Of a stretch of 64,000 nucleotides of DNA, positions 2,808 to 60,016 are shown piece by piece. The notes under the pieces were generated by a model. The model searched no databases. It saw only the letters and a list, made by a program, of their open reading frames with translations, and had not been told where the DNA came from. How positions within the stretch are numbered: position 1 is the first letter of the stretch; each line of letters begins with the position of its first letter. The DNA comes from an uncultured Paracoccaceae bacterium (GTDB taxonomy: Bacteria; Pseudomonadota; Alphaproteobacteria; Rhodobacterales; Rhodobacteraceae), in NCBI GenBank assembly GCA_938049225.1, contig CALICM010000007.1, positions 1 to 64,000 on the forward strand, in the 5' to 3' direction. Made by a program: the position numbers and the translations under genes.

Positions 2808-3983
2808 TCACTGCAGATCCGAAAAAGCGTGCTCAATCCGCTCGAGCGCATCACTGAGCGTCGCCCGCGAAGTTCCAAAATTGAACCGCATGAACATCTC
2901 GCCGCCCTTGCCAAAGGTCGGGCCATGGTTGGCGGCGATCCGCGCGTCCTGTTCGATCCGCCTCGTGAACTCCTCGACCGACATACCGGTGCCCGAGAAG
3001 TCGACCCATGCCAGATATGTCGCCTCAAGCGGGATGCTGCGCAGGCCGGGCAGTGCGTTGACCCTGTCGTCAAACATGCGGCGGTTGCTGTCCAAATAAG
3101 CGATCAACGCCTCAAGCCAATCGACGCCATAGGCATAGGCCGCAGTGGTCATCATCGCACTGATCCGGTTCAGCCCCGTCCCCGACGCCTTGAGCACGCC
3201 TTGCATCTTCGCCCGCAGCACGGGATCGGGGATGATCGCCTGAGCGTTCTTGCTGCCTGCAATATTGAAGGTCTTTGAGGGCGCGTTCAGCATGATCGTG
3301 CGGTCCATCGCATGGGGCGCCGCATTGGGCATGACCGTATGTGTGTGGCCCGGAAAGACCAGGTCCTGGTGGATCTCGTCAGACACCAGGATCAGGTCGT
3401 AGGTTATGCAGAAATCCGCCAGATCGCGTAACTCCTCAGGCGTCCAAACACGCCCCCCCGGATTATGGGGTGAGCAAAGGATCACCATCCGTTCGCTACC
3501 GTCCATTTGGTCAGCAAGCGCCTCAAGGTCCATATGGTAACGGCCATCGACCAGTTGCATTTCCGACTGGATGCCGCGCCGCCCGTTTGCGTCGATCATC
3601 CGATGAAAGGCATGGTAGACGGGTGTGAACGTGATGACCCCATCGCCAGGCTCGGTGTAGGCCTGCAGCGCCGCGCCAACCGCATGCACCACACCGTGGG
3701 TGCTCAGGATCCACTCAGGCTGAACCTGCCAATCGTGCCGCGCGGCCATCCAATGCCGGATCGAGGCCAGATAGGCCGTTTGGTCCCCATGGTAGCCATG
3801 CACGCCATGCTCGGCCAATTTCATCAGTGTCGCATTGACCGCTGGCGGGGACGCAAAATCCATATCCGCCGTCCACATCGCCAGGCCATCTTTGGGCGAG
3901 ACACCGTAGTACCCCTCCATCTCATCCCATTTGTCGCTGTTGGTCTTGCGACGGTCGATGGTCTTGTCAAAGTCGTATGGCAT
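2808..3983 (-). CDS. PatB/MalY-family PLP-dependent C-S lyase (putative cystathionine beta-lyase)
   Basis: Fold-type I PLP enzyme of 391 residues. The MalY/PatB class cleaves the C-S bond of cystathionine or cysteine conjugates to give a thiol, pyruvate and ammonia. The N-terminal WTADMDFASPP segment is typical (usual form W.ADMDF). CSPHNPGGRVW and SDEIHQDL are the conserved PLP-binding stretches, and SKTFNIAGSKNA contains the lysine expected to form the Schiff base. ATG at 3983 has an AGGA about 6 bp upstream and gives the family-typical start MPYDF; the longer upstream frame is not needed. It stands alone, divergent from the def operon. Exact substrate is unresolved. Confidence 0.88.
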   Translation of the reverse strand: MPYDFDKTIDRRKTNSDKWDEMEGYYGVSPKDGLAMWTADMDFASPPAVNATLMKLAEHGVHGYHGDQTAYLASIRHWMAARHDWQVQPEWILSTHGVVHAVGAALQAYTEPGDGVITFTPVYHAFHRMIDANGRRGIQSEMQLVDGRYHMDLEALADQMDGSERMVILCSPHNPGGRVWTPEELRDLADFCITYDLILVSDEIHQDLVFPGHTHTVMPNAAPHAMDRTIMLNAPSKTFNIAGSKNAQAIIPDPVLRAKMQGVLKASGTGLNRISAMMTTAAYAYGVDWLEALIAYLDSNRRMFDDRVNALPGLRSIPLEATYLAWVDFSGTGMSVEEFTRRIEQDARIAANHGPTFGKGGEMFMRFNFGTSRATLSDALERIEHAFSDLQ

Positions 3984-4086: not shown

Positions 4087-4605
4087 ATGACCCGCCGTGC
4101 GATCCTGATCCATCCCGACCCCCGCCTGCGCAAAGTGGTGCCCGCCATCGAGACGGTCGATGCAGAGGTGCGCAAACTGGCGGACGACATGCTGGAAACC
4201 ATGTATGATGCGCCGGGAATTGGGCTGGCGGCACCTCAAATCGGCGTGATGGGCCGCGTGTTCGTGATGGATTGCGACCGCGATGCGCCGGGCGAACACC
4301 CGACGGTATGTATCAACCCCAAGATCACGTGGACATCGGACGCGCGTGTGACGGGCGAAGAGGGTTGCCTGTCGATCCCAGACTATTATGCCGAAGTGGA
4401 GCGCTTCGAAAAGATCCGCTTAGCATTCACGGATCTGGACGGTGCGGCGCACGAAGAGGAATACGACGGCCAATGGGCGATCTGCGCTCAGCACGAGTTG
4501 GACCATTTGGATGGCAAGCTGTTCATCGACTACTTAAGTGCGATGCGCCGCACGATGGTGACCCAAAAGATGAAAAAGCTGAAGAAAGAGCGCGCGCGCG
4601 GCTGA
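4087..4605 (+). CDS. def: Peptide deformylase
   Basis: Removes the formyl group from the N-terminal methionine of nascent proteins at the ribosome. All three motifs are intact: GIGLAAPQ (motif 1), EGCLS with the metal-binding cysteine (motif 2), and HELDH, an HExxH with two metal histidines and the catalytic glutamate (motif 3). At 172 residues it has normal length. An in-frame GTG lies 9 bp upstream at 4078; I prefer the ATG because the protein then begins MTRRAILIHPDPRL, close to relatives. First gene of def - def-like - fmt; its TGA shares one base with the next ATG, so translation is probably coupled. Confidence 0.95.
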   Translation: MTRRAILIHPDPRLRKVVPAIETVDAEVRKLADDMLETMYDAPGIGLAAPQIGVMGRVFVMDCDRDAPGEHPTVCINPKITWTSDARVTGEEGCLSIPDYYAEVERFEKIRLAFTDLDGAAHEEEYDGQWAICAQHELDHLDGKLFIDYLSAMRRTMVTQKMKKLKKERARG

Positions 4606-5120: not shown

Positions 5121-6049
5121 TGCGGATTATCTTCATGGGCAGTCCGGCGTTTTCGGTACCGACGCTCGATGCCCTTGTGGCAGCGGGGCACGAGGTCGTG
5201 GCGGTTTACTGCCAGCCCCCACGCCGGGCCGGGCGCGGCAAACAAGAGCGCCCAACGCCAGTACATGCGCGCGCCCTTGCATTGGGACTGCCGGTCCATT
5301 GCCCAAAGACGCTTCGCGATAGCGCGGCGCAGGAGGTTTTTGCCGCCCTCAAGGCAGATGTTGCGATTGTCATTGCTTATGGGCTGATCCTGCCGCAAGC
5401 GATTTTGGACGCGCCACGGCTGGGATGTTTGAACATCCATGCCTCGCTGCTGCCGCGCTGGCGCGGGGCCGCACCGATCCACCGCGCGATCATGGCAGGG
5501 GACGCGGAAACCGGTGTCTGTATCATGCAAATGGAAGCGGGTTTGGACACGGGCCCGGTTTTCGCGCGAAAAGCCCTGGCTATTGCGCCCAACGCCACCA
5601 CCGGCAGTGTGCACGACGCCCTCGCCGCCCTGGGGGCCGATCTGCTGACGCAGGTTCTGCCCCAATTGCCGATGCTCGCAACGCCACAACCGACGACTGG
5701 GGTGACCTATGCCCATAAAATCGAGAAATCCGAGGCGGCGATAGATTGGACCAGACCGGCGGTCGAGGTGGACCGCCAGATCCGCGGACTAAGCCCGTTT
5801 CCCGGCGCCTGGACCCAAGTGGGGGCAGAGCGTGTAAAACTGCTAACCTCAACCGTCGCGCCGGGGTCCGGACGTCCGGGCGAGGTGATCGGGCGGCCCC
5901 TAACGGTGGCCTGCGGCACCGGCGCTGTGGCCGTCGGCCAGGCGCAACGGGCGGGGCGGGCAGCGCAGTCGGTCGATGAGCTGCAGCGGGGGTTTGCGAT
6001 TGCGCTGGGTCAGATCCTTGGCCAAGCGGGTGGCGATAGGATAGACTGA
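5120..6049 (+). CDS. fmt: Methionyl-tRNA formyltransferase
   Basis: Formylates initiator Met-tRNA using 10-formyl-tetrahydrofolate, the step that deformylase later reverses. At 309 residues it has normal length. The N-terminal Rossmann-like domain begins [14 protein letters not shown], and the catalytic region contains [21 protein letters not shown], with the expected asparagine, histidine and SLLP loop. The C-terminal OB-like domain includes the [10 protein letters not shown] segment. The start codon overlaps the stop of the preceding def-like gene, placing formylation and deformylation enzymes in one operon, a common bacterial arrangement. Confidence 0.95.
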
Positions 6050-8441: not shown

Positions 8442-8521
8442 CGCCCTGCCCCGTCTGTGGGATGGTCAAATCGCACATGCCGCGCCATAACAGCGCTGGG
8501 AAATTGGGAAGCGAGGACGTC

Positions 8522-11317
8522 ATGACACAGTCTTTCGGCAAGGGCCACCACCTGCATCTGATCGACGGCTCGGCCTTTATCTTTCGCGCCTTCCACGCCC
8601 TGCCGCCCCTGACCCGTAAGTCCGATGGTCTGCCCATTGGCGCGGTCAGCGGCTTTTGCAACATGATTTTTAAGATGGTCGAGGATAACGCAGGTCCTGA
8701 TGCGCCGACCCATGTGGCGGTGATCTTTGACAAAGGCAGCCACACGTTTCGCAATGAAATGTACGACCAATACAAGGCCAACCGCGATGCCATGTCCGAG
8801 GATCTGCGCCCTCAGATCCCGCTGACGCGCGACGCCACCCGCGCCTTCAACATCGCCTGCATCGAGAAAGAGGGGTTCGAGGCCGACGACATCATCGCCA
8901 CCTACGCCCGCGAGGCGCGCGAGGCGGGGGGGCGGGTGACGATCATCAGTTCGGACAAGGATCTGATGCAGTTGGTCGGTGGCGGTGTCGAAATGTTCGA
9001 TGCGATGAAGAACACCCGCCTGGGCCCCGAGGAGGTAGAGGCGAAATTCGGCGTCGGGCCGGATCGGGTCATCGACGTGCAGGCCTTGGCGGGGGACTCG
9101 GTGGATAATATTCCCGGCGCACCGGGCATAGGGATCAAGACCGCCGCCCTGCTCATCCAGGAATACGGGGATCTGGACAGCCTTTTGGAACGTGCCGACG
9201 AGATCAAGCAACCCAAACGGCGCCAGACCCTGATCGACCATGCGGACCAGATCCGGCTGAGCCGCGATCTGGTGACACTGGATCAAAATACGCCTGACCT
9301 GGAACCGCTGGATGCTTTGGAGGTTCGCGAACCCATAGCCGAAGACCTGCTCGGCTTTCTGTCCGAAATGGAGTTCCGGACCCTCACCAAACGCATTGCC
9401 GAGAAGCTGGGAATCGACGTGCCCGAGATGCCCGAACCCATCGCACGGGGCGCGACCCCCAGCGTGGAATTGGGGTTCGACACCGGCGCTTATACCTGCG
9501 TGCGCGATGCCGAGGCATTGCACACTTGGGTCGCGCAAATCATGGCCCGGGGCTATGTCGCCGTGGATACCGAGACGACCGGATTGGACGAGATGCGCGC
9601 CGATCTGGTCGGGATCTCGCTGTCGGTCGAGCCGGGGCAGGCCTGTTATATTCCCTTGGCGCATGTCAGCGGCTCGGGCGACCTGCTCGGCGCGGCCGAG
9701 CGGGTCGCAGGGCAGATGACGGTCGATGCGGCCTTGGCGATCCTGAAACCGGTTCTTGAGGATGACAGTGTCCTGAAGATCGGCCAGAACATGAAATACG
9801 ACCTCAAGATCTTCGCCCGCTACGGCGTTGCGGTCGCGCCCATCGCCGATACGATGCTCATGTCCTATGCCTGCCATGCGGGCCTGCATGGGCACGGAAT
9901 GGACACACTCAGCGAGCGGTATTTGAACCACACGCCGATCCCGATCAAATCGATCCTGGGGACCGGCAAATCGCAGATCACCTTTGACCAGGTGCCCATC
10001 GAGGACGCGGTGCCTTACGCTGCTGAGGATGCGGATATCACCCTGCGGCTATGGAAGCTGCTGGCGCCCAAAATGCCCGTAGAACAAGTGACGACGGTCT
10101 ATGAGACTATGGAGCGCCCGCTGGTGCCGGTCCTCGCACAGATGGAGATGGCGGGGATCACGGTGAACCGCGACCACCTGAGCCGCATGTCCAACAGTTT
10201 TGCACAGAAAATGGGGGGCTTAGAGGCGGAAATTCATGAACTGGCCGGACGTTCATTTAATGTGGGCTCGCCCAAGCAACTGGGTGAGATCCTGTTTGAC
10301 GAGATGAGCCTGGAGGGCGGCAAAAAAGGCAAGACCGGGGCCTATGCCACCGGTGCGGATGTGCTGGAGTCGTTGGCCGCGCAAGGGCACGATCTGCCCG
10401 CACGGGTGTTGGATTGGCGGCAGCTATCCAAACTGAAAAGCACCTACACCGATGCCCTGCAGGAGCATATTCACCCCGAGACCGGGCGGGTGCATACCTC
10501 GTACTCCATCGCGGGGGCGAACACCGGGCGCCTGGCCTCCACCGACCCGAACCTGCAGAACATCCCCGTCCGCACCGAAGAGGGGCGGCGGATCCGCGAG
10601 GCCTTTGTTCCCGCGCCGGGTAAGGTCCTGCTCAGCCTTGATTACAGCCAGATCGAGTTGCGGATCCTGGCGCATATCGCCGGGATCGATGCGCTACGGC
10701 AAGCCTTTCACGATGGGCTCGACATCCACGCGATGACGGCGTCCGAGATGTTCGACGTGCCCTTGGACGAAATGACGCCAGATGTGCGCCGTCAGGCCAA
10801 GGCGATCAACTTCGGCGTGATCTATGGCATTTCGGCCTTTGGCCTGGCCAACAATCTGCGCATCCCGCGCGACCAAGCCAAGGGGTTCATCGACCGCTAT
10901 TTCGAGCGGTTTCCCGGCATCCGCGAATACATGGACGACACCGTCGCCTTCGCCAAAAAGACTGGCTATGTCCAAACCCTGTTCGGCCGCAAGATCCACA
11001 CGCCCGAGATTGGCGCCAAGGGTCCCAAAGCGGGCTTCGCCTGGCGGGCCGCAATCAACGCGCCGATCCAAGGCACGGCCGCCGATGTGATCCGTCGCGC
11101 GATGATCCGCGTGCCTAAAGCGCTGGGGGATCTTCCGGCAACCATGCTGCTGCAGGTGCATGACGAACTGCTGTTCGAAGTGGCCGAGGACGCGGTCGAC
11201 CCCACAATCGCCGCCGTGCGCGCGGTGATGGAGGGCGCCGCGGACCCTGCGGTACATCTGTCCGTCCCACTCACCGTCGACGCAGGCACTGGCGCCAATT
11301 GGGCCGAGGCGCATTGA
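8522..11317 (+). CDS. polA: DNA polymerase I
   Basis: Repair and Okazaki-fragment processing polymerase, 931 residues. Domains in order: 5'-3' exonuclease (about 1-300; LIDGSAFIFRAFHALP, GFEADDIIATYA, SSDKDLMQL), 3'-5' proofreading exonuclease (about 320-520; motif DTETTGLD, then GQNMKYDLK and YAAEDADITLRL), and the family A polymerase. Polymerase motif A is LDYSQIELRILAHIA, motif B is RRQAKAINFGVIYGIS, and motif C is LLQVHDELLFE. Because the DTET motif is present, proofreading is likely retained. ATG at 8522 follows GCGAGGACGTC and is preferred over ATGs farther upstream. Confidence 0.97.
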   Translation: MTQSFGKGHHLHLIDGSAFIFRAFHALPPLTRKSDGLPIGAVSGFCNMIFKMVEDNAGPDAPTHVAVIFDKGSHTFRNEMYDQYKANRDAMSEDLRPQIPLTRDATRAFNIACIEKEGFEADDIIATYAREAREAGGRVTIISSDKDLMQLVGGGVEMFDAMKNTRLGPEEVEAKFGVGPDRVIDVQALAGDSVDNIPGAPGIGIKTAALLIQEYGDLDSLLERADEIKQPKRRQTLIDHADQIRLSRDLVTLDQNTPDLEPLDALEVREPIAEDLLGFLSEMEFRTLTKRIAEKLGIDVPEMPEPIARGATPSVELGFDTGAYTCVRDAEALHTWVAQIMARGYVAVDTETTGLDEMRADLVGISLSVEPGQACYIPLAHVSGSGDLLGAAERVAGQMTVDAALAILKPVLEDDSVLKIGQNMKYDLKIFARYGVAVAPIADTMLMSYACHAGLHGHGMDTLSERYLNHTPIPIKSILGTGKSQITFDQVPIEDAVPYAAEDADITLRLWKLLAPKMPVEQVTTVYETMERPLVPVLAQMEMAGITVNRDHLSRMSNSFAQKMGGLEAEIHELAGRSFNVGSPKQLGEILFDEMSLEGGKKGKTGAYATGADVLESLAAQGHDLPARVLDWRQLSKLKSTYTDALQEHIHPETGRVHTSYSIAGANTGRLASTDPNLQNIPVRTEEGRRIREAFVPAPGKVLLSLDYSQIELRILAHIAGIDALRQAFHDGLDIHAMTASEMFDVPLDEMTPDVRRQAKAINFGVIYGISAFGLANNLRIPRDQAKGFIDRYFERFPGIREYMDDTVAFAKKTGYVQTLFGRKIHTPEIGAKGPKAGFAWRAAINAPIQGTAADVIRRAMIRVPKALGDLPATMLLQVHDELLFEVAEDAVDPTIAAVRAVMEGAADPAVHLSVPLTVDAGTGANWAEAH

Positions 11318-11436
11318 AACCCTGCTAGGAAATCTGGACCCTCGGCGAGCACCTACAGCAGTCAGCGACACCGCCCGCGCAGTCGTCTCCTCATCTGGAG
11401 GGACACCAAGAATTGGGCTGGAACCACGAAGGCTCG

Positions 11437-11472
11437 CCCGCCTTCGAATGTCAAGGTCAAGCCCAAACCCAC
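11437..11472. repeat. 36-bp direct repeat, left copy
   Basis: The 36 bases starting CCCGCCTTCGAAT match those at 12151-12186 at 31 positions, in the same orientation. The pair brackets the broken CutA/NIF3-like gene and the first 179-bp-type repeat, so it may mark the ends of an inserted or duplicated segment. There is no recognisable gene between polA and 11541. Confidence 0.6.
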
Positions 11473-11540
11473 CAAAAAGAGCATTGCTTGGCCGCCTGGC
11501 TATGGCGTAGAACAATAAGAGAACAAGCGCCGGGGGATGT

Positions 11541-11999
11541 ATGTCGGAGCTTTCCAATTATCGGGCGAATTCGGGAAAACTGGTGCCAGTCTTCACAATA
11601 GAAGTGCAGACTTTACCGGAAGACACGGATCGCATCCTAGATGAAGTCATGAAAGTTCATCCCTTGAGCTTTGGGCGCTACCAAAGAAATGCGAGCGTCT
11701 CAGCGCTTGGGAAGGAAACTGCTCAACCAGAGCCGAGTTCGACAACTACAACGCATGTTGACGGTTTCGAGGTTGGTTCGACAGAGACCTACCCAATGGT
11801 CGAGCTGAAAATCTCGATTGATCGTGACCTTGCAGAGCTTTAGAAGGTGATGGACGCAATAATCTACGCACACCACTACGAAGAACCAGTGATTTTTATT
11901 CGGGAGGATTGGGCGAGCCGCGCCGCCTACGATCCACAAAGTGACAATGCAAACCGTTGGTGGAACAATGGGAAGGGGCTGCCTAAGAGGATCGACTAA
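11541..11999 (+). pseudogene. CutA/NIF3-like alpha-beta domain gene broken by an in-frame TAG
   Basis: The frame opens at ATG 11541 and runs 100 codons to TAG at 11841-11843. It then continues in the same frame for 51 more codons to TAA at 11997. Joined across the stop, the product is about 152 residues and reads as one domain: beta strands around VPVFTIEV and MVELKISI and a final YAHHYEEPVIFI. The last resembles the HPYEEP signature of the CutA-like domain found in NIF3/YqfO proteins. The conserved YEEP part lies after the stop. This is either a recent nonsense pseudogene, a readthrough case, or a sequencing error. Family assignment is by motif resemblance only. Confidence 0.6.
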
Positions 12000-12020
12000 G
12001 CGAGCGACAGCAAAGTCAGC

Positions 12021-12150
12021 GCATTACAGAATACGTTGCTTATTGACGTCACCTCCAACATTTACGGGACTGACCGTCGGCCCACAATGAACATCAGGCG
12101 GTGTCCAAGCCTGCCACCAGCCCCCCCCGGTCGGCGGGACTACCGCTCGA
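12021..12150 (+). repeat. Structured intergenic repeat, copy 1 (shortened)
   Basis: Begins GCATTACAGAATAC and carries the shared GACTGACCGTCGGCCCACA and CCGGTCGGCGGGA segments. It aligns with copies at 12973-13151 and 13941-14119 but loses similarity after about 12145, where the second 36-bp direct repeat begins. The 5' arm of its central hairpin is degraded to a run of C. Confidence 0.7.
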
Positions 12151-12186
12151 CCCGCCTTCGAATATTAAGATCGAGCCCAACCCCAC
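12151..12186. repeat. 36-bp direct repeat, right copy
   Basis: Partner of 11437-11472, 31 of 36 bases identical. It replaces the right part of the 179-bp repeat in copy 1. From 12187 to 12358 I see nothing recognisable. Confidence 0.6.
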
Positions 12187-12358
12187 GCCAAAGCGCCCGC
12201 CGGCACGGAACAAAAGACGAAACAGCCAGCCGCTTTGCCGCTCACGGCTGATCTTGGCGTTTCAAAGCTCAGCGAGCCCGGTCAGATGGCGGCTCTCAGC
12301 CCATTACTCTGATCTTCCGCGATGCGGCGAGTAGCTCTTGCCGCGAGTTTAACCCGCC

Positions 12359-12775
12359 TTACCCGTTTCGTCCTGCTTCGTTCGGATCGCTGGAGAAAAG
12401 TGCGATCTTGTTGCCTTGAGGGTCGCGAAGGTAGCCAACATAGAAATGGGGTCCATAAGAGCGACGGAAGCCCGGCTGGCCCTCGTCGGAACCGCCAGCG
12501 GAGAGCGCGGAGGCGTGAAGGTCACGAACTTGCTTTTGATTCCGCGCCTCGAATGCGACCATAGAACCGTTGCCAGCCGAGGCTAGGCGTCTATCGAAGG
12601 TTGGTTTAACGTAGAAGTCAGGCAGAACGGGAGGCTGACCCGGTTGTACGGGCAGTGCGTAACTCAGGCCCTCAGGACCCTCCTCCAATTCGTAGCCAAG
12701 GACTGGCAGGAAAGCGGAATAAAACCGTTTCGCGCGCGCGATATCATCCGCACCGACTGTAACGTAGGCAATCAT
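12359..12775 (-). CDS. VOC (glyoxalase/bleomycin-resistance) superfamily protein
   Basis: A 138-residue protein of the vicinal oxygen chelate fold, with the paired beta-alpha-beta-beta-beta modules expected. The N-terminus is MIAYVTVGADDIARAKRFY, and the C-terminal module holds GPHFYVGYLRDPQGNKIALF, typical of small metal-binding VOC proteins. Members include glyoxalase I, fosfomycin-resistance enzymes and antibiotic-binding proteins; sequence alone does not choose. It lies on the opposite strand to the other small genes in this accessory patch and sits between repeat copies 1 and 2. The ribosome-binding site is weak. Confidence 0.8.
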   Translation of the reverse strand: MIAYVTVGADDIARAKRFYSAFLPVLGYELEEGPEGLSYALPVQPGQPPVLPDFYVKPTFDRRLASAGNGSMVAFEARNQKQVRDLHASALSAGGSDEGQPGFRRSYGPHFYVGYLRDPQGNKIALFSSDPNEAGRNG

Positions 12776-12972
12776 ATTTCGTGCTTCTTTATGGGAATTT
12801 GGTTATTCAATCGAAATCACTGCATTGTTGTAGGCCAAGACAAAACTAAGCTCAACAAAAGACCCTTTCTTGACCCCAAAAACGACATCAGTGCAATTGC
12901 AGCGAAAGCGCACTTTCTCCGCGCATAAACCAATTCGGCTTGCTGCGGGCGAAATCGCGTAGCTGGCGCATC

Positions 12973-13151
12973 GCATCACAGAATACATTGCTTGTTAACG
13001 TCACGTCCAACATTGATGGGACTGACCGTCGAACCACAACAAAAGTAGGGTGATGTACAAGGCCGCCATCTGGCCCCGCCGGTCGGCGGGACCGGCACTG
13101 TCGGGCTATCCCGTCAGCTGAACCATATCACCGCCTTCAACGGGTGGATTA
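12973..13151 (+). repeat. Structured intergenic repeat, copy 2 (full, 179 bp)
   Basis: Begins GCATCACAGAATAC and ends CAACGGGTGGATTA. It contains the hairpin CCCGCC-GGTC-GGCGGG, then CTGTCGGG-CTAT-CCCGTCAG, and the conserved AACCATATCACCGCCTTCAACGGGT tail. It is 179 bp like copy 3 and lies between the two VOC genes, directly before an IS3 orfA remnant. Confidence 0.8.
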
Positions 13152-13157
13152 CTCACA

Positions 13158-13329
13158 GTGACCTGGTTCGGATGCACGTCGAACTGTGTTGCCAGCACGC
13201 TCCTGTTTCGAGGAAACCCGTCCACTGGACACATTTCTATTCCCTCACACTCTTGTCACCCTTCAAAGCCGACAACGCGACTTTCGCCTTGAAAGCAGGG
13301 TTGTGATTCCATCGTGTTCGTCTTGCCAT
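13158..13329 (-). pseudogene. Remnant of an IS3-family transposase OrfA
   Basis: On the minus strand from ATG 13329 the frame reads MARRTRWNHNPAFKAK and then VALSALKGDKSVRE before a TAG at 13239. This is the N-terminus of IS3-family OrfA (HTH_Tnp_1 type). In another frame, 13199-13158 encodes VLATQFDVHPNQVT, the next conserved OrfA segment. About 40 bp of unrelated sequence and a frameshift separate the two parts, and nothing of OrfB remains. Clearly dead; it marks past IS activity in this patch. Confidence 0.8.
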
Positions 13330-13487
13330 TTTCGCTCCTTCGTCCCGGCAACGCTGCCAGATCAGGAGCGGAAAATCCACCTAACTCAACTGTTCAGATT
13401 TGTCCCGCCACCTCTCAGAGAGCCCCGCTTGACCGTTCATTGACCGACGCCTAGGGTCGTTCTCGGGCCTTTAACCTAGGAAACGTT

Positions 13488-13877
13488 ATGTTTGATCACC
13501 TAGAATTTTCCGTTGAAAACATTAATGATGCACGCCGCTTCTATGTACCAATCTGTAAGGCAATTGGTGCTCACGAGGTTTTTTTTGATGCAGATTCTGG
13601 CGAACTCGGAATAGGGTCGGACAACAGCGTCAATTTTCTACTCACAGAAGGGAAATTGACTACGCCCAAACTTCACATTTGCTTCAAGGCCTTGAGCAAG
13701 GAAAGTGTTGAAACAGCATATTTAGGTGCACTATCTGGAGGCGGAAGCTGTAATGGGAAGCCAGGTTACCGGGACCACTATGCAGCAGGCTATTTCGCTG
13801 CTTTCATCATAGATCCTGACGGGCACAACGTCGAGATTTTGTTTCGAGAGCCAAGTAACATAGCTGGGGGGGCGTAA
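13488..13877 (+). CDS. VOC superfamily protein, lower-GC, probably acquired
   Basis: A 129-residue VOC-fold protein beginning MFDHLEFSVENINDARRFY and ending with FAAFIIDPDGHNVEILFRE, where the glutamate is a usual metal ligand. TAGGAAACGTT precedes the ATG, giving a good ribosome-binding site. Codon use is clearly more A/T-rich than in the chromosomal genes around it, which supports recent acquisition. It is followed by repeat copy 3. Function beyond the fold is unknown; the other VOC protein 700 bp away is only distantly similar, so this is not a simple duplication. Confidence 0.85.
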   Translation: MFDHLEFSVENINDARRFYVPICKAIGAHEVFFDADSGELGIGSDNSVNFLLTEGKLTTPKLHICFKALSKESVETAYLGALSGGGSCNGKPGYRDHYAAGYFAAFIIDPDGHNVEILFREPSNIAGGA

Positions 13878-13940
13878 GCCGCCTCAGATTAGAGTTTGCG
13901 TTGATTTATCGGCGCCTACGCAATGATTGTGATGCCCCGC

Positions 13941-14119
13941 GCATAAAAGAATACACTGCTTGTTAACGTCACGTCCAACATTGATAGGACTGACCGTCGG
14001 CCCACAATAAACATTAGGCGGTGTCCAAGGTCGCCATCAGACCCTGCCGGTCGGCAGGATCCGCACTGTCGGGTCACCCCGTCAGCGGAACCATATCACC
14101 GCCTTCAACGGGTAGATTA
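13941..14119 (+). repeat. Structured intergenic repeat, copy 3 (full, 179 bp)
   Basis: Begins GCATAAAAGAATACACTGC and ends CAACGGGTAGATTA. The central hairpin is CCTGCC-GGTC-GGCAGG; compared with copy 2 both sides of one pair have changed together (T-A against C-G). It starts 64 bp after the VOC gene stop and runs straight into the 100-bp palindromic element. Confidence 0.8.
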
Positions 14120-14219
14120 AAGCGTTTCACCTTTACCTTGAGACATATCTCATCACCTAACGCGTTGAAATCTATGATTTCAGGCAGCGTTAGGTGATTC
14201 AAGTTTAAGGCGAAGCGCG
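14119..14219. repeat. 100-bp palindromic, MITE-like element, copy A
   Basis: An imperfect inverted repeat. Outer arms AAAGCGTTTCACCTTTACCTTGA and TCAAGTTTAAGGCGAAGCGC (reverse complement) surround a perfect 12-bp inner pair ATCACCTAACGC / GCGTTAGGTGAT and a central GAAATC-TAT-GATTTC stem. About 93% identical to 59621-59720. No coding capacity. Confidence 0.8.
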
Positions 14220-14281
14220 ATAGTCACAGGCTTTGATCATTTGAACAACAAAAACATGGTCCACATATCACGGGTGAGGAC

Positions 14282-14950
14282 CTAGGGGGCGGTTGTTAAC
14301 ATCTCTTGGCCCGATTTGATCAGCGCTTTCGTGCAGCCCAGCGCCCGCAGCGAACGCTCGGTTGTTTCATCCGCGACGCGCAGCGGTTCGGACCCGTCAG
14401 TCCGCACACCAGATTGCGCCAGATCCGCCGCGCCGTGGATTGCACTCCACAGAAAATAGATGTCCTCCATCTGAGGTGGATCCGCCAACCCACCCAAACG
14501 GTGCATATCGCGGCAGTTCTCGACCGTGCAATCCAGGACGGTGTAGCGCATTAACTCTGGATCGTGCTTCAGATCCTCGCGGCACAACACGCCGATCCTA
14601 CCGAACATCATCCGCCATAGGGTGGGGTTGCCATAGGCGAAGCACACAAAGGCGCGCCCCATTTCAAAGGCCCGCGCGACGGAATGCTCAGCGGACGAGG
14701 CCACGCACCCCTCGGCGCGGATCTTGAAGAACACTTCGCGAAGATGCAGGAAACCCTGGTGGACAACCGCCTTCAGCAACGCGTCCTTATCGCAGAAATG
14801 TCTATAGACCGCGCCCGACGACACCCCCAGATCCCGCGCCGCCGCCCGCAGGCTCATGCTGTCGATCTGTCCTTGATCCGTCGCGCGACGGGCATAGACG
14901 ACCAAAGCGTCCCGTAAATCGCCACGGCGAAGAGGAGGTATGTCATTCAT
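14282..14950 (-). CDS. TetR-family transcriptional regulator
   Basis: A 222-residue repressor-type protein. The N-terminal helix-turn-helix covers about residues 25-65, including SLRAAARDLGVSSGAVYRHFCDKDALL, the hallmark TetR segment. The C-terminal half is a helical ligand-binding and dimer domain with a FGNP-like region (FAYGNPTLWRMMF) seen in the WHG-type TetR C-terminal domain. A perfect 13-bp inverted repeat abuts the start codon, so autorepression is likely. No divergently transcribed target gene shares the operator: the gene upstream reads the same way. The ligand and other targets are unknown. Confidence 0.9.
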   Translation of the reverse strand: MNDIPPLRRGDLRDALVVYARRATDQGQIDSMSLRAAARDLGVSSGAVYRHFCDKDALLKAVVHQGFLHLREVFFKIRAEGCVASSAEHSVARAFEMGRAFVCFAYGNPTLWRMMFGRIGVLCREDLKHDPELMRYTVLDCTVENCRDMHRLGGLADPPQMEDIYFLWSAIHGAADLAQSGVRTDGSEPLRVADETTERSLRALGCTKALIKSGQEMLTTAP

Positions 14951-14985
14951 GACCCAGTTGTAAGCATTGATTACAACTGGGTCAA
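14951..14985 (-). promoter_or_regulatory. Operator and promoter of the TetR gene
   Basis: GACCCAGTTGTAA (14951-14963) and TTACAACTGGGTC (14971-14983) form a perfect 13-bp inverted repeat with a 7-bp spacer. On the minus strand TTGACC (-35, 14985-14980) and TACAAC (-10, 14962-14957) are 17 bp apart, both inside the palindrome. Only six bases separate the -10 from the ATG, so the transcript would be leaderless. Confidence 0.8.
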
Positions 14986-15037
14986 TTCACCAGGATGTGG
15001 GGCCCAAAGATACCATCGGGTCTTTGAGCCACGCGGC

Positions 15038-58579: not shown

Positions 58580-59622
58580 AGACCTCTGCATAACGGCGGG
58601 ATTTCGTGATTTGGTTGGATTTGGTATGGTTTTATCAGGTTTTCGCAGGCGGTTTGATGGGCCTGTTTTTGCGCGAAGCGGTGGATCGGATTGGCGATGA
58701 CGATGTGCTGGCAAAGATCGATGCCTTGATGGATTGGCGTGCCTTTTCGCCGATCCTGACGCGCGGTTTGGGTCGGTCCGGGAATGGGCCTCCGGGTTAT
58801 GAGCCGCTGGTTCTTTTCAAGTGCCTGTTGATCGGCCAGTGGCACGGGCTGAGCGCCCCGAAGTTGGAGCGCGCCTTGAAAGTGCGGCTGGATTTTATGA
58901 TCTTTTGCGGGCTCGACCTACACGCGCCCGTGCCGGATGAAACCAGCCATTGCCGGTTCCGCACTGCGCTGGTTCGGGGCGGGGTTTACGATGACCTGCT
59001 GGGTGAGGTCTGTCGCCAGATCGAAGCCCACGGGCTGAAGCTGCAAGAGGCCGCCATTATCGACGCCACTTTGGTGGACAGCGCGGCCCGGCCCGGCCCC
59101 CATATCGAGGCGCCGCAGGACCGGGCCGCGGGCGCAGCCCCCGACGATCTGGAGTTACATTTCAGCGCCGATCCAGACGCTCGCTGGGTCAAAAAAGGGT
59201 CCAAATCGACACTCGGTTACAAGGCGTTTGCCCGCGCTGACGAGGAAGGGTTTGTTGATAAGGTTCACACCACGCCCGCCAACCGCGCCGAAAGCCCGGA
59301 GTTCGGGCATATGATCGAAGGCTCCAGCGCACAGCGCGTTCTGGCCGACAAGGCCTATGCGGCCCGTGCCAACCGGGAGATGCTGCGCGGCAAGCATCAG
59401 GACGGGATCATGCGCAAGGCCGCGCGGGGCCGCCCCCTGCGCGCCTCCGAGAAACGCTTCAACCGCCTGATCTCGAAACGCCGGTTCCGCGTCGAACAAT
59501 GCTTCGGCACGATGAAACGGCTCTTCGGTCTGCACCGCGCCCGTTATTTCGGGCTGGCCAAAACCCACGCCCAACTGGCGCTTGCGGCCATCGGGCAGAA
59601 CCTCCTGAAAGCCGCCAACTAA
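58580..59622 (+). mobile_element. IS5-family insertion sequence, right end missing
   Basis: The left end starts near AAGACCTCTGCATAACGG (58579-58596), which resembles terminal repeats of IS5-family elements. No matching inverted copy is present after the transposase; instead, a 100-bp palindromic element begins at the transposase stop codon. The IS therefore seems truncated or displaced at its right end. It lies between the pyrB-plsY region and the photosynthesis cluster flank. Confidence 0.7.
58657..59622 (+). CDS. IS5-family transposase
   Basis: A DDE transposase of 321 residues. The first aspartate is in AAIIDATLVDSAARP, the second in RVLADKAYAARANRE, and the glutamate in RRFRVEQCFGTMKRLFG, the IS4/IS5-type DDE arrangement. 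ATG 58657 has an AGG seven bases upstream; GTG 58606 is an alternative. The frame is full up to IGQNLLKAAN, after which the stop TAA is made by the first bases of the adjoining palindrome, so a few C-terminal residues may be missing. It may still be active but could not move without its right terminal repeat. Confidence 0.88.
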   Translation: MGLFLREAVDRIGDDDVLAKIDALMDWRAFSPILTRGLGRSGNGPPGYEPLVLFKCLLIGQWHGLSAPKLERALKVRLDFMIFCGLDLHAPVPDETSHCRFRTALVRGGVYDDLLGEVCRQIEAHGLKLQEAAIIDATLVDSAARPGPHIEAPQDRAAGAAPDDLELHFSADPDARWVKKGSKSTLGYKAFARADEEGFVDKVHTTPANRAESPEFGHMIEGSSAQRVLADKAYAARANREMLRGKHQDGIMRKAARGRPLRASEKRFNRLISKRRFRVEQCFGTMKRLFGLHRARYFGLAKTHAQLALAAIGQNLLKAAN

Positions 59623-59720
59623 AACGTTTCGACTTTACTTTGAGACATGTCTCATCACCTAAAGCGTTGAAATCTATGATTTCAGGCAGCGTTAGGTGAT
59701 TCAAGTTAAAGGCGAAGCGC
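59621..59720. repeat. 100-bp palindromic, MITE-like element, copy B
   Basis: Starts AAAACGTTTCGACTTTAC and ends GGCGAAGCGC, with the same nested inverted repeats as copy A at 14119-14219 and about seven mismatches in 100. Its first bases form the stop codon of the IS5 transposase. Confidence 0.8.
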
Positions 59721-60016
59721 TGTAGATCACCCTAAAAACGCAAACACCGGCAATCGCATAAACCAAACCGACAAGACCGATCTGCCCGCTGAAATGCCAG
59801 CGGGCAAAGCAGAACCGCCAAATCAAATCTGCAACTGAAAATCACGCCGCCGCGCAGTGGTCTTAGTTAATCTGAGACTGAAGACACTCGTGGTCTCGAA
59901 TTAAGCGCCCTACCGTTCAAGAACCACCGCTGTCTTACAATTAAGTGCCAAGTGACAGCGGGGCCAAAGATTGACGTGGTTCAAGGCCAACGCACAGGCC
60001 AAAGAAAGCGCCACAG
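59721..60016. other. Intergenic, no gene seen; one hairpin
   Basis: Between the palindromic element and the tspO 3' end I see no coding frame worth reporting. A perfect hairpin, GCCCGCTG (59784-59791) with CAGCGGGC (59798-59805) and loop AAATGC, is present without a T-run. Base composition is lower in GC than the genes around it. Confidence 0.5.

Follow-up and report, generated by a model that had tools for sequence, protein, structure and literature searches.

The polA-tetR interval and its contents

The DNA analysed here (the window) is a stretch of 64,000 nucleotides, positions 1 to 64,000 of contig CALICM010000007.1 (C7), from an uncultured Paracoccaceae bacterium whose genome assembly (GCA_938049225.1; 3,998,068 bases in 101 contigs, 99% complete) we refer to as its own genome. 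The nearest matches, from Tateyamaria, Paracoccus, Sulfitobacter and Phaeobacter, point to a Rhodobacterales-like bacterium. Between polA and a TetR gene, the window holds a patch in which small genes alternate with direct copies of an intergenic repeat of about 187 bp, and it is the repeat and the origin of this patch that we consider. The gap between the two bordering genes measures 2,964 bases, and the features in and around it are as follows (positions in the window):

8462-11317: polA
11416-11482, plus strand: R0, a fragment of the repeat consisting of tail A only, with a 64-67-bp match to the end of R1
11541-11999, plus strand: conserved gene with the CutA/NIF3 fold (CutA-like gene), with an in-frame TAG at 11841-11843
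12020-12196, plus strand: R1, core (12020-12141) running into tail A (12133-12196)
12359-12775, minus strand: VOC1, glyoxalase-fold gene (Pfam Glyoxalase_6 and Glyoxalase, both just under the curated cut-off)
12972-13158, plus strand: R2, full repeat with core and tail B
about 13159-13415, minus strand: insertion-sequence remnant of IS3 type (5' end of orfA and fragments), adjoining R2
13488-13877, plus strand: VOC2, glyoxalase-fold gene (Pfam Glyoxalase, above the cut-off)
13940-14117 and 14224-14229, plus strand: R3, core and tail B, split by a palindromic element
14118-14223, no strand: palindromic element resembling a miniature inverted-repeat transposable element (MITE), with terminal TA, lodged in R3
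14282-14950, minus strand: TetR gene

Read from polA onwards, the order is the R0 tail, the CutA-like gene, R1, VOC1 (minus strand), R2, the insertion-sequence remnant, VOC2, and R3 with its palindrome. The original prediction, made from the sequence, had described three small genes alternating with three copies of a repeat, and this layout stands far above chance: the top self-match within the patch scored 208 bits, against 26.5 bits for the best of 100 dinucleotide shuffles. The lower GC content that it reported is likewise seen (47-60% in the patch vs. 57-73% in the remainder of 8-18 kb, in 500-bp windows). The repeats start 952 and 968 bp apart, and in a self-comparison of the patch only the repeat and its tail are held in common, the spacers between the repeats being unrelated. 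The claim that a repeat follows each gene holds, in order of transcription, for two of the three: R1 starts 20 bp after the CutA-like gene and R3 62 bp after VOC2, whereas R2 lies 196 bp upstream of the start of VOC1.

Copies, extent and divergence of the repeat

A 122-bp core occurs three times, always on the plus strand (R1, 12020-12141; R2, 12972-13093; R3, 13940-14061). Beyond the core, R2 (12972-13151) and R3 (13940-14119) remain 86% identical across 180 bp, and their homology restarts for TCACAG past the palindrome lodged in R3, so that the full repeat unit is about 187 bp, against the 179 bp given earlier for these two copies. R1 follows the other two copies for about 122 bp and then runs on as tail A (12133-12196), which recurs as R0 (11416-11482). 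None of 1000 shuffles gave a match as good as this pair, which had been noticed as a 36-bp direct repeat and is real, with a length of 64-67 bp. Tail A was found at only two places in the own genome (E ≤ 0.01), and since one of these lies ahead of the first gene, each gene is flanked by pieces of the repeat. Tail A (R0/R1) and tail B (R2/R3) have CCGCCTTC and adjacent bases in common; shuffles matched this score in 88-470 of 1000 trials, and we do not claim that the two tails are related.

Over 121 positions the cores differ at 24 (R1/R2), 21 (R1/R3) and 20 (R2/R3) sites, that is, by 16.5-20%, with 11, 10 and 7 private changes among the three cores and 3 sites that differ in all three. The copies are near-equidistant, so none of them arose recently by duplication of another. 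Four-fold degenerate sites of polA differ by 40% (116/290) from one of the two congeners compared, G002, and by 51% (138/272) from the other, G001. The cores are less diverged than these sites and, if neutral, would have parted after the species split.

The repeat had been called structured, a description that is at best weakly supported. The z-scores of its DNA folds range from -0.2 to -2.1, and only R2 has a mildly stable fold (matched or bettered by 4 and 6 of 200 shuffles on its two strands, compared with 12 to 85 of 200 for the other repeats), so the repeat is predicted to be at most weakly structured. No Rfam family matched between 8000 and 18000 at E ≤ 1, and inspection by eye of the ends of R2 and R3 revealed no terminal inverted repeats and no target duplication, nor were TA ends of the 187-bp repeat evident. 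A coding role was also considered and rejected: the differences distribute as 12/5/15 over codon positions in the best frame, on the minus strand (chi-square about 4.9 before correction for the choice of frame, not significant). Peptides translated from the repeat had no match in Pfam or PHROGs, and against plasmids they gave only two weak matches, both in Azospirillum (E 0.8 and 2).

Distribution of the repeat

In the own genome, blastn located the repeat at three places, and a sequence model recovered the same three at E up to 0.5; all lie in the patch and all are direct. No credible copy was detected in G001 or G002, in a family sample of 393 other genomes (blastn and sequence model), in a class sample of 384 other genomes (E ≤ 1e-4), or in 72,556 plasmid records, of which 26 matched at E ≤ 10 (best E 0.5). 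With the whole patch as query, the sole match among 50,697 phage records was to the insertion-sequence remnant. Searching viral contigs and GTDB genomes for the exact pattern gave no copy, and the repeat had no blastn match, at E up to 0.05, in 71 loci (L079-L149) selected for the CutA-like gene and related sequences. These negative results are to be read with the sampling in mind: in the large samples 2 to 9 candidates were scored per genome, so that weak homologs could be lost, and the collections may omit records of this or very close genomes.

Beyond the own genome, blastn on the family sample returned 8 matches, all of them short (24-65 bp, with E between 2e-4 and 1e-3), more than the 0.4 expected at E 0.001 over 394 genomes. 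Seven of them fall within positions 78-144 of the repeat, a stretch that we judge to be GC-rich, and one at 47-76. Because the blastn matches outnumber expectation, we relied on the sequence model, which gave 4 matches (E 0.003-0.009) where about 4 are expected. With laxer filters, 24 relatives yielded 7 matches outside the own genome (E 0.045 to 0.44), with 12 expected at 0.5. We treat the weak matches in the family, the relatives and the plasmids as chance. The repeat is thus confined, in the genomes searched, to the neighbourhood of these small genes, and the scatter unrelated to small genes that the original prediction had named as evidence against itself was not found.

As a control for local repeats we used 149 sequences (931,386 bases) picked by homology and partly overlapping, from which 10 loci of the patch itself had been excluded. 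The other families of at least three copies in this set (L143, L153 and possibly L086) overlap long open reading frames. Pairs of repeats lying outside or partly outside open reading frames of 100 amino acids were seen in L086, L093 and L109, and the pair in L149 lies within mechanically called reading frames. The control is rough, since long open reading frames often arise by chance in GC-rich DNA. Some literature searches for such repeats returned nothing.

A conserved border with variable cargo

The gene order polA, tetR, a small gene, htpX and rsmB is conserved in both congeners, and the polA-tetR gap varies in size from about 0.6 kb in G001 and 2.1 kb in G002 to 3.0 kb in the window's species. 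The gap of G002 carries a retron-type reverse transcriptase, its frame apparently broken, and a PAS-domain gene (L054, 1877-3995); DNA of the patch has no match in either congener at E ≤ 1e-3. The conserved order and the differing contents indicate that the polA-tetR spot is a place where cargo varies between species, as judged from one genome for each of the three, the window's species being represented by a single strain. The spot thus resembles an accessory-gene hotspot at a conserved border; unlike the two congeners, the window's species bears an internal repeat array there.

The small genes

VOC1 is 76% identical in amino acid sequence to a VOC protein on a Tateyamaria plasmid. At E ≤ 1e-20, VOC2 turned up in two of the 388 family genomes searched, one of them the own genome. 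An IMG/VR contig encodes a protein with 65% identity to VOC2, which is probably foreign. VOC1 and VOC2 are 33% identical over 64 residues and point in opposite directions. On the IMG/VR contig (L149), an 85-bp direct repeat is present twice (1060-1144 and 3859-3943), with the relative of VOC2 behind one of the two copies. Eleven plasmid records from Thioclava, Labrenzia, Paracoccus and Roseovarius contain weaker relatives of this 85-bp stretch (E ≤ 0.01), in DNA without annotation.

The CutA-like gene is 78% identical, over 134 columns, to a plasmid protein of Roseibium aggregatum, and a scan of GTDB genomes yielded 70 loci, 65 of which gave full reading frames. A homolog was modelled with AlphaFold from 35 of the 65 sequences (pLDDT 89); the top Foldseek match was the NIF3-related structure 2gx8 (E 4.6e-6, TM-score 0.55 on the query), with PII and CutA1 chains ranking behind it (E of 1.8e-4 at best). 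The model predicts a ferredoxin-like fold of the kind found in CutA, PII and the NIF3 insert, which suits the earlier naming of the gene as CutA/NIF3-like, and the in-frame TAG bears out its description as broken. The homologs scanned matched no Pfam or NCBIfam family. Relatives 62-86% identical carry very different host labels; many of these are metagenome-assembled genomes (MAGs) and may be misbinned. The three small genes are unrelated to one another and were probably imported.

Several outside loci show further features around this gene. L093, from Pseudovibrio ascidiaceicola, contains the 3' end of the CutA-like gene twice (4364-4427 and 5390-5453; 91% over 64 bp). The repeated end stands behind a small gene that by our reading is pyridoxamine-oxidase-like, an arrangement suggestive of a segment inserted where the CutA-like gene ends. 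L099 shares this small gene, and the Pseudovibrio loci L086, L094, L095, L104, L108 and L145 match only to about the end of the CutA-like gene. In six of 71 loci (L125, L127, L131, L134, L136 and L138), the CutA-like gene is followed directly by a relative of a pyridoxamine 5'-phosphate oxidase family gene, and a gene of the same family lies upstream of it on the Roseibium plasmid (L071, 239-790), hinting at a functional link between the two. The plasmid homolog in L071 is itself split by an IS3 element and has a VOC gene immediately upstream.

Insertion-sequence remnant and palindromic element

The insertion-sequence remnant is 85% identical to unannotated Phaeobacter plasmid DNA and 73% identical to two records annotated as 'Transposase'. 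A Pfam search with 30 residues of the remnant found no family. Its presence agrees with the original prediction; the name IS3, which we in part presume, rests otherwise on similarity to the orfA that the annotated IS3 element of L071 carries.

The palindromic element, also correctly predicted, belongs to a family of 104-106 bp found at 31 distinct places in the genome (35 match rows, of which 4 are the same places on the other strand), 25 of them at ≥ 89% identity over ≥ 94 bases; a second copy in the window lies at 59620-59725. In nine aligned copies TA stands at or beside the ends, and the inverted ends are imperfect. The hairpin has a z-score of -6.7. With terminal inverted repeats, TA ends and many dispersed copies, the family has the usual features of a MITE. 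A pattern search for its end gave 78 matches, compared with 24 for a reversed control pattern. At the one solo match looked at in detail (54226), no element was seen in the sequence read there, and within that scope the search gave no parent insertion sequence. The element resembles MITEs such as RUP of pneumococcus, which is 107 bp long, uses TA targets and occurs in regions with insertion-sequence elements (PMC2229807). Kinship of the palindromic element with IS630 is what we infer.

Comparison with integrons and dispersed repeats

The patch is like an integron array, or a cluster of attC sites lacking an integrase (CALIN; PMC9668308), in that direct copies of a repeat stand between small genes that are unrelated to each other, and one of the genes is flanked by attC-like sites elsewhere. 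It is unlike them in that its repeat of about 187 bp has no attC detected inside it, its genes point both ways, and no integrase scores over the cut-off.

A strict scan of the patch for R''/R' pairs, which together with L''/L' make up the boxes of attC, found none. Since strict scans also missed the sites in L109, a contig of a gammaproteobacterial MAG, we count only a relaxed attC finder, which recovers the attC-like sites of L109 (3855-3933, 4421-4499 and 5859-5914) and found none within R1, R2 or R3. The relaxed finder is unspecific: it gave 11 matches in L109, 3 of which were taken as attC, and 9 in the patch (11301-14300, both strands), several of them inside VOC1. Among 21 tiles of 3 kb in the window (range 0-10 matches), the tile 12001-15000 was the second highest, with 9. 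One weak match (12924-13000) reaches into the first 29 bases of R2. A palindrome at 14243-14298, across the end of the TetR gene and outside the repeats, has attC-like geometry and scores like the best L109 site; about 10 sites in the 64-kb window score similarly, and this one may be due to chance.

Among 68 outside loci, the CutA-like gene sits between two attC-like sites in one, L109, where a third site follows further on; in 10 of the 67 others the relaxed finder matched on one side of the gene only. From their sequence, the L109 sites are likely true attC sites, and the CutA-fold gene there an integron cassette of a family without a Pfam match. DNA folding is of no help in telling the two apart: at z -0.2 to -1.5, the L109 sites fold no better than the repeats of the window. 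The integron integrase profile TIGR02249 found nothing over its cut-off of 265 in the own genome. Its 13 loose matches there (best 80.9 bits) include none on contig C7, and loose matches occur in 14 of 14 control genomes as well.

We therefore do not regard the patch as an integron: there is no attC-like site inside the repeats, no integrase above the cut-off, and VOC1 is reversed with R2 upstream of its start, contrary to the largely uniform orientation, with attC downstream of each gene, of such arrays. The likeness to cassette arrays noted earlier is real as a gene-repeat-gene layout and does not extend to an integron by these tests, and the doubts expressed at the time about attC sites and an integrase were well founded. 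That the patch is nonetheless the relic of a cassette array without an integrase, its repeats being decayed attC sites, is highly improbable. The layout, the attC-like flanks in L109, the high-ranking tile and the score of 14243-14298 speak for such a relic; the lack of attC-like sites within the repeats, the position of 14243-14298 outside them, the unspecific finder, the missing integrase and the reversal of VOC1 speak against it.

The patch repeat also resembles MITEs and other small intergenic repeats such as RUP, being intergenic and shorter than 200 bp, and R3 bears the insertion of a MITE-like element. Unlike MITEs, the 187-bp repeat shows on inspection neither terminal inverted repeats nor TA ends, and it is not scattered. 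A scattered element was rejected for a repeat found at three places in one patch and in one direction, and so was tandem duplication of whole units, in which the spacers would share more than the repeat. Copies that all run one way, with unrelated DNA between them, fit neither.

Origin of the patch

The reading that we tentatively favour is of a decaying patch of foreign genes built stepwise, by the addition of gene-plus-repeat segments at the repeat. Each step would add a gene and one copy of the repeat beside a resident copy, through recombination within or at the repeat, a step that we infer; either a small circle or a fragment could integrate in the Campbell manner, or a recombinase could act in trans. 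Addition at a resident repeat would force one direction on all copies and would permit a chimeric copy such as R1. Decay would then have followed, with a stop codon in the first gene, truncation of the insertion sequence beside R2, and entry of the TA-flanked palindrome into R3. This reading is supported by the three direct, near-equidistant copies, all of them here and with unrelated DNA between them; by R1, which has its core in common with R2 and R3 and its tail with R0; by the different cargo at the same spot in two congeners and the rarity of VOC2 in the family sample; by the diverse host labels of the CutA-like relatives and the attC-like flanks in L109; and by repeat cores less diverged than four-fold sites of polA. 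Several points weigh against it. Neither a site of recombination within the repeat nor a recombinase working on it came to light, and the 13 loose integrase-profile matches all lie on contigs other than C7. A divergence of 16-20% is poor for present-day recombination of the RecA type, and the neutral clock applied to the repeats is an assumption. R2 lies upstream rather than downstream of the reversed VOC1, and no strain with one unit more or fewer is known, so that clean gain or loss has not been observed.

The chief rival, which we consider rather doubtful, is import as a block: the patch would have arrived in one transfer from a donor genome or plasmid in which it was an ordinary intergenic repeat, its copies already diverged and with no recombination at them. 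The low GC content of the patch, the rarity of VOC2 in the family, the absence of the repeat from both congeners and the similar divergence across copies would all be accounted for. However, searches of plasmids, phages, viral contigs, GTDB, the family and the class gave no donor, three copies in 2.1 kb are very dense for a dispersed repeat, and a shared direction would be a one-in-four chance if orientation were random. Transfer of the whole patch as one block by one known element, which the original prediction had set against itself, is neither shown nor excluded. Alternatively, illegitimate recombination or repair could have made local duplicates of a piece of the original intergenic DNA, with the foreign genes and the insertion sequence landing independently between them. 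Such local copying would explain why the copies are found only here, direct and at nearly equal spacings (952 and 968 bp), but the spacers share nothing beyond the repeat, the VOC genes are opposed and far more diverged (33% amino acid identity) than the repeats, and intergenic DNA of the congeners holds no similar stretch (E ≤ 1e-3); we regard it as unlikely. Stepwise addition at the repeat might in turn be the work of a dedicated system, the 187-bp repeat being the recombination site of an unrecognised cassette system of Rhodobacterales-like bacteria that uses neither an integron integrase nor attC and adds single small genes beside polA in direct, repeat-bounded units. This we consider very unlikely.

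If the repeats mark the junctions at which single genes were added, the patch would represent a cassette-like gathering of genes beside a core gene, with neither attC sites nor an integron integrase. If they do not, it is still a clear example of a patch of foreign genes accreting and decaying, by a stop codon, an insertion sequence reduced to a remnant and a MITE insertion, and a caution against diagnosing an integron from a gene-repeat layout alone.

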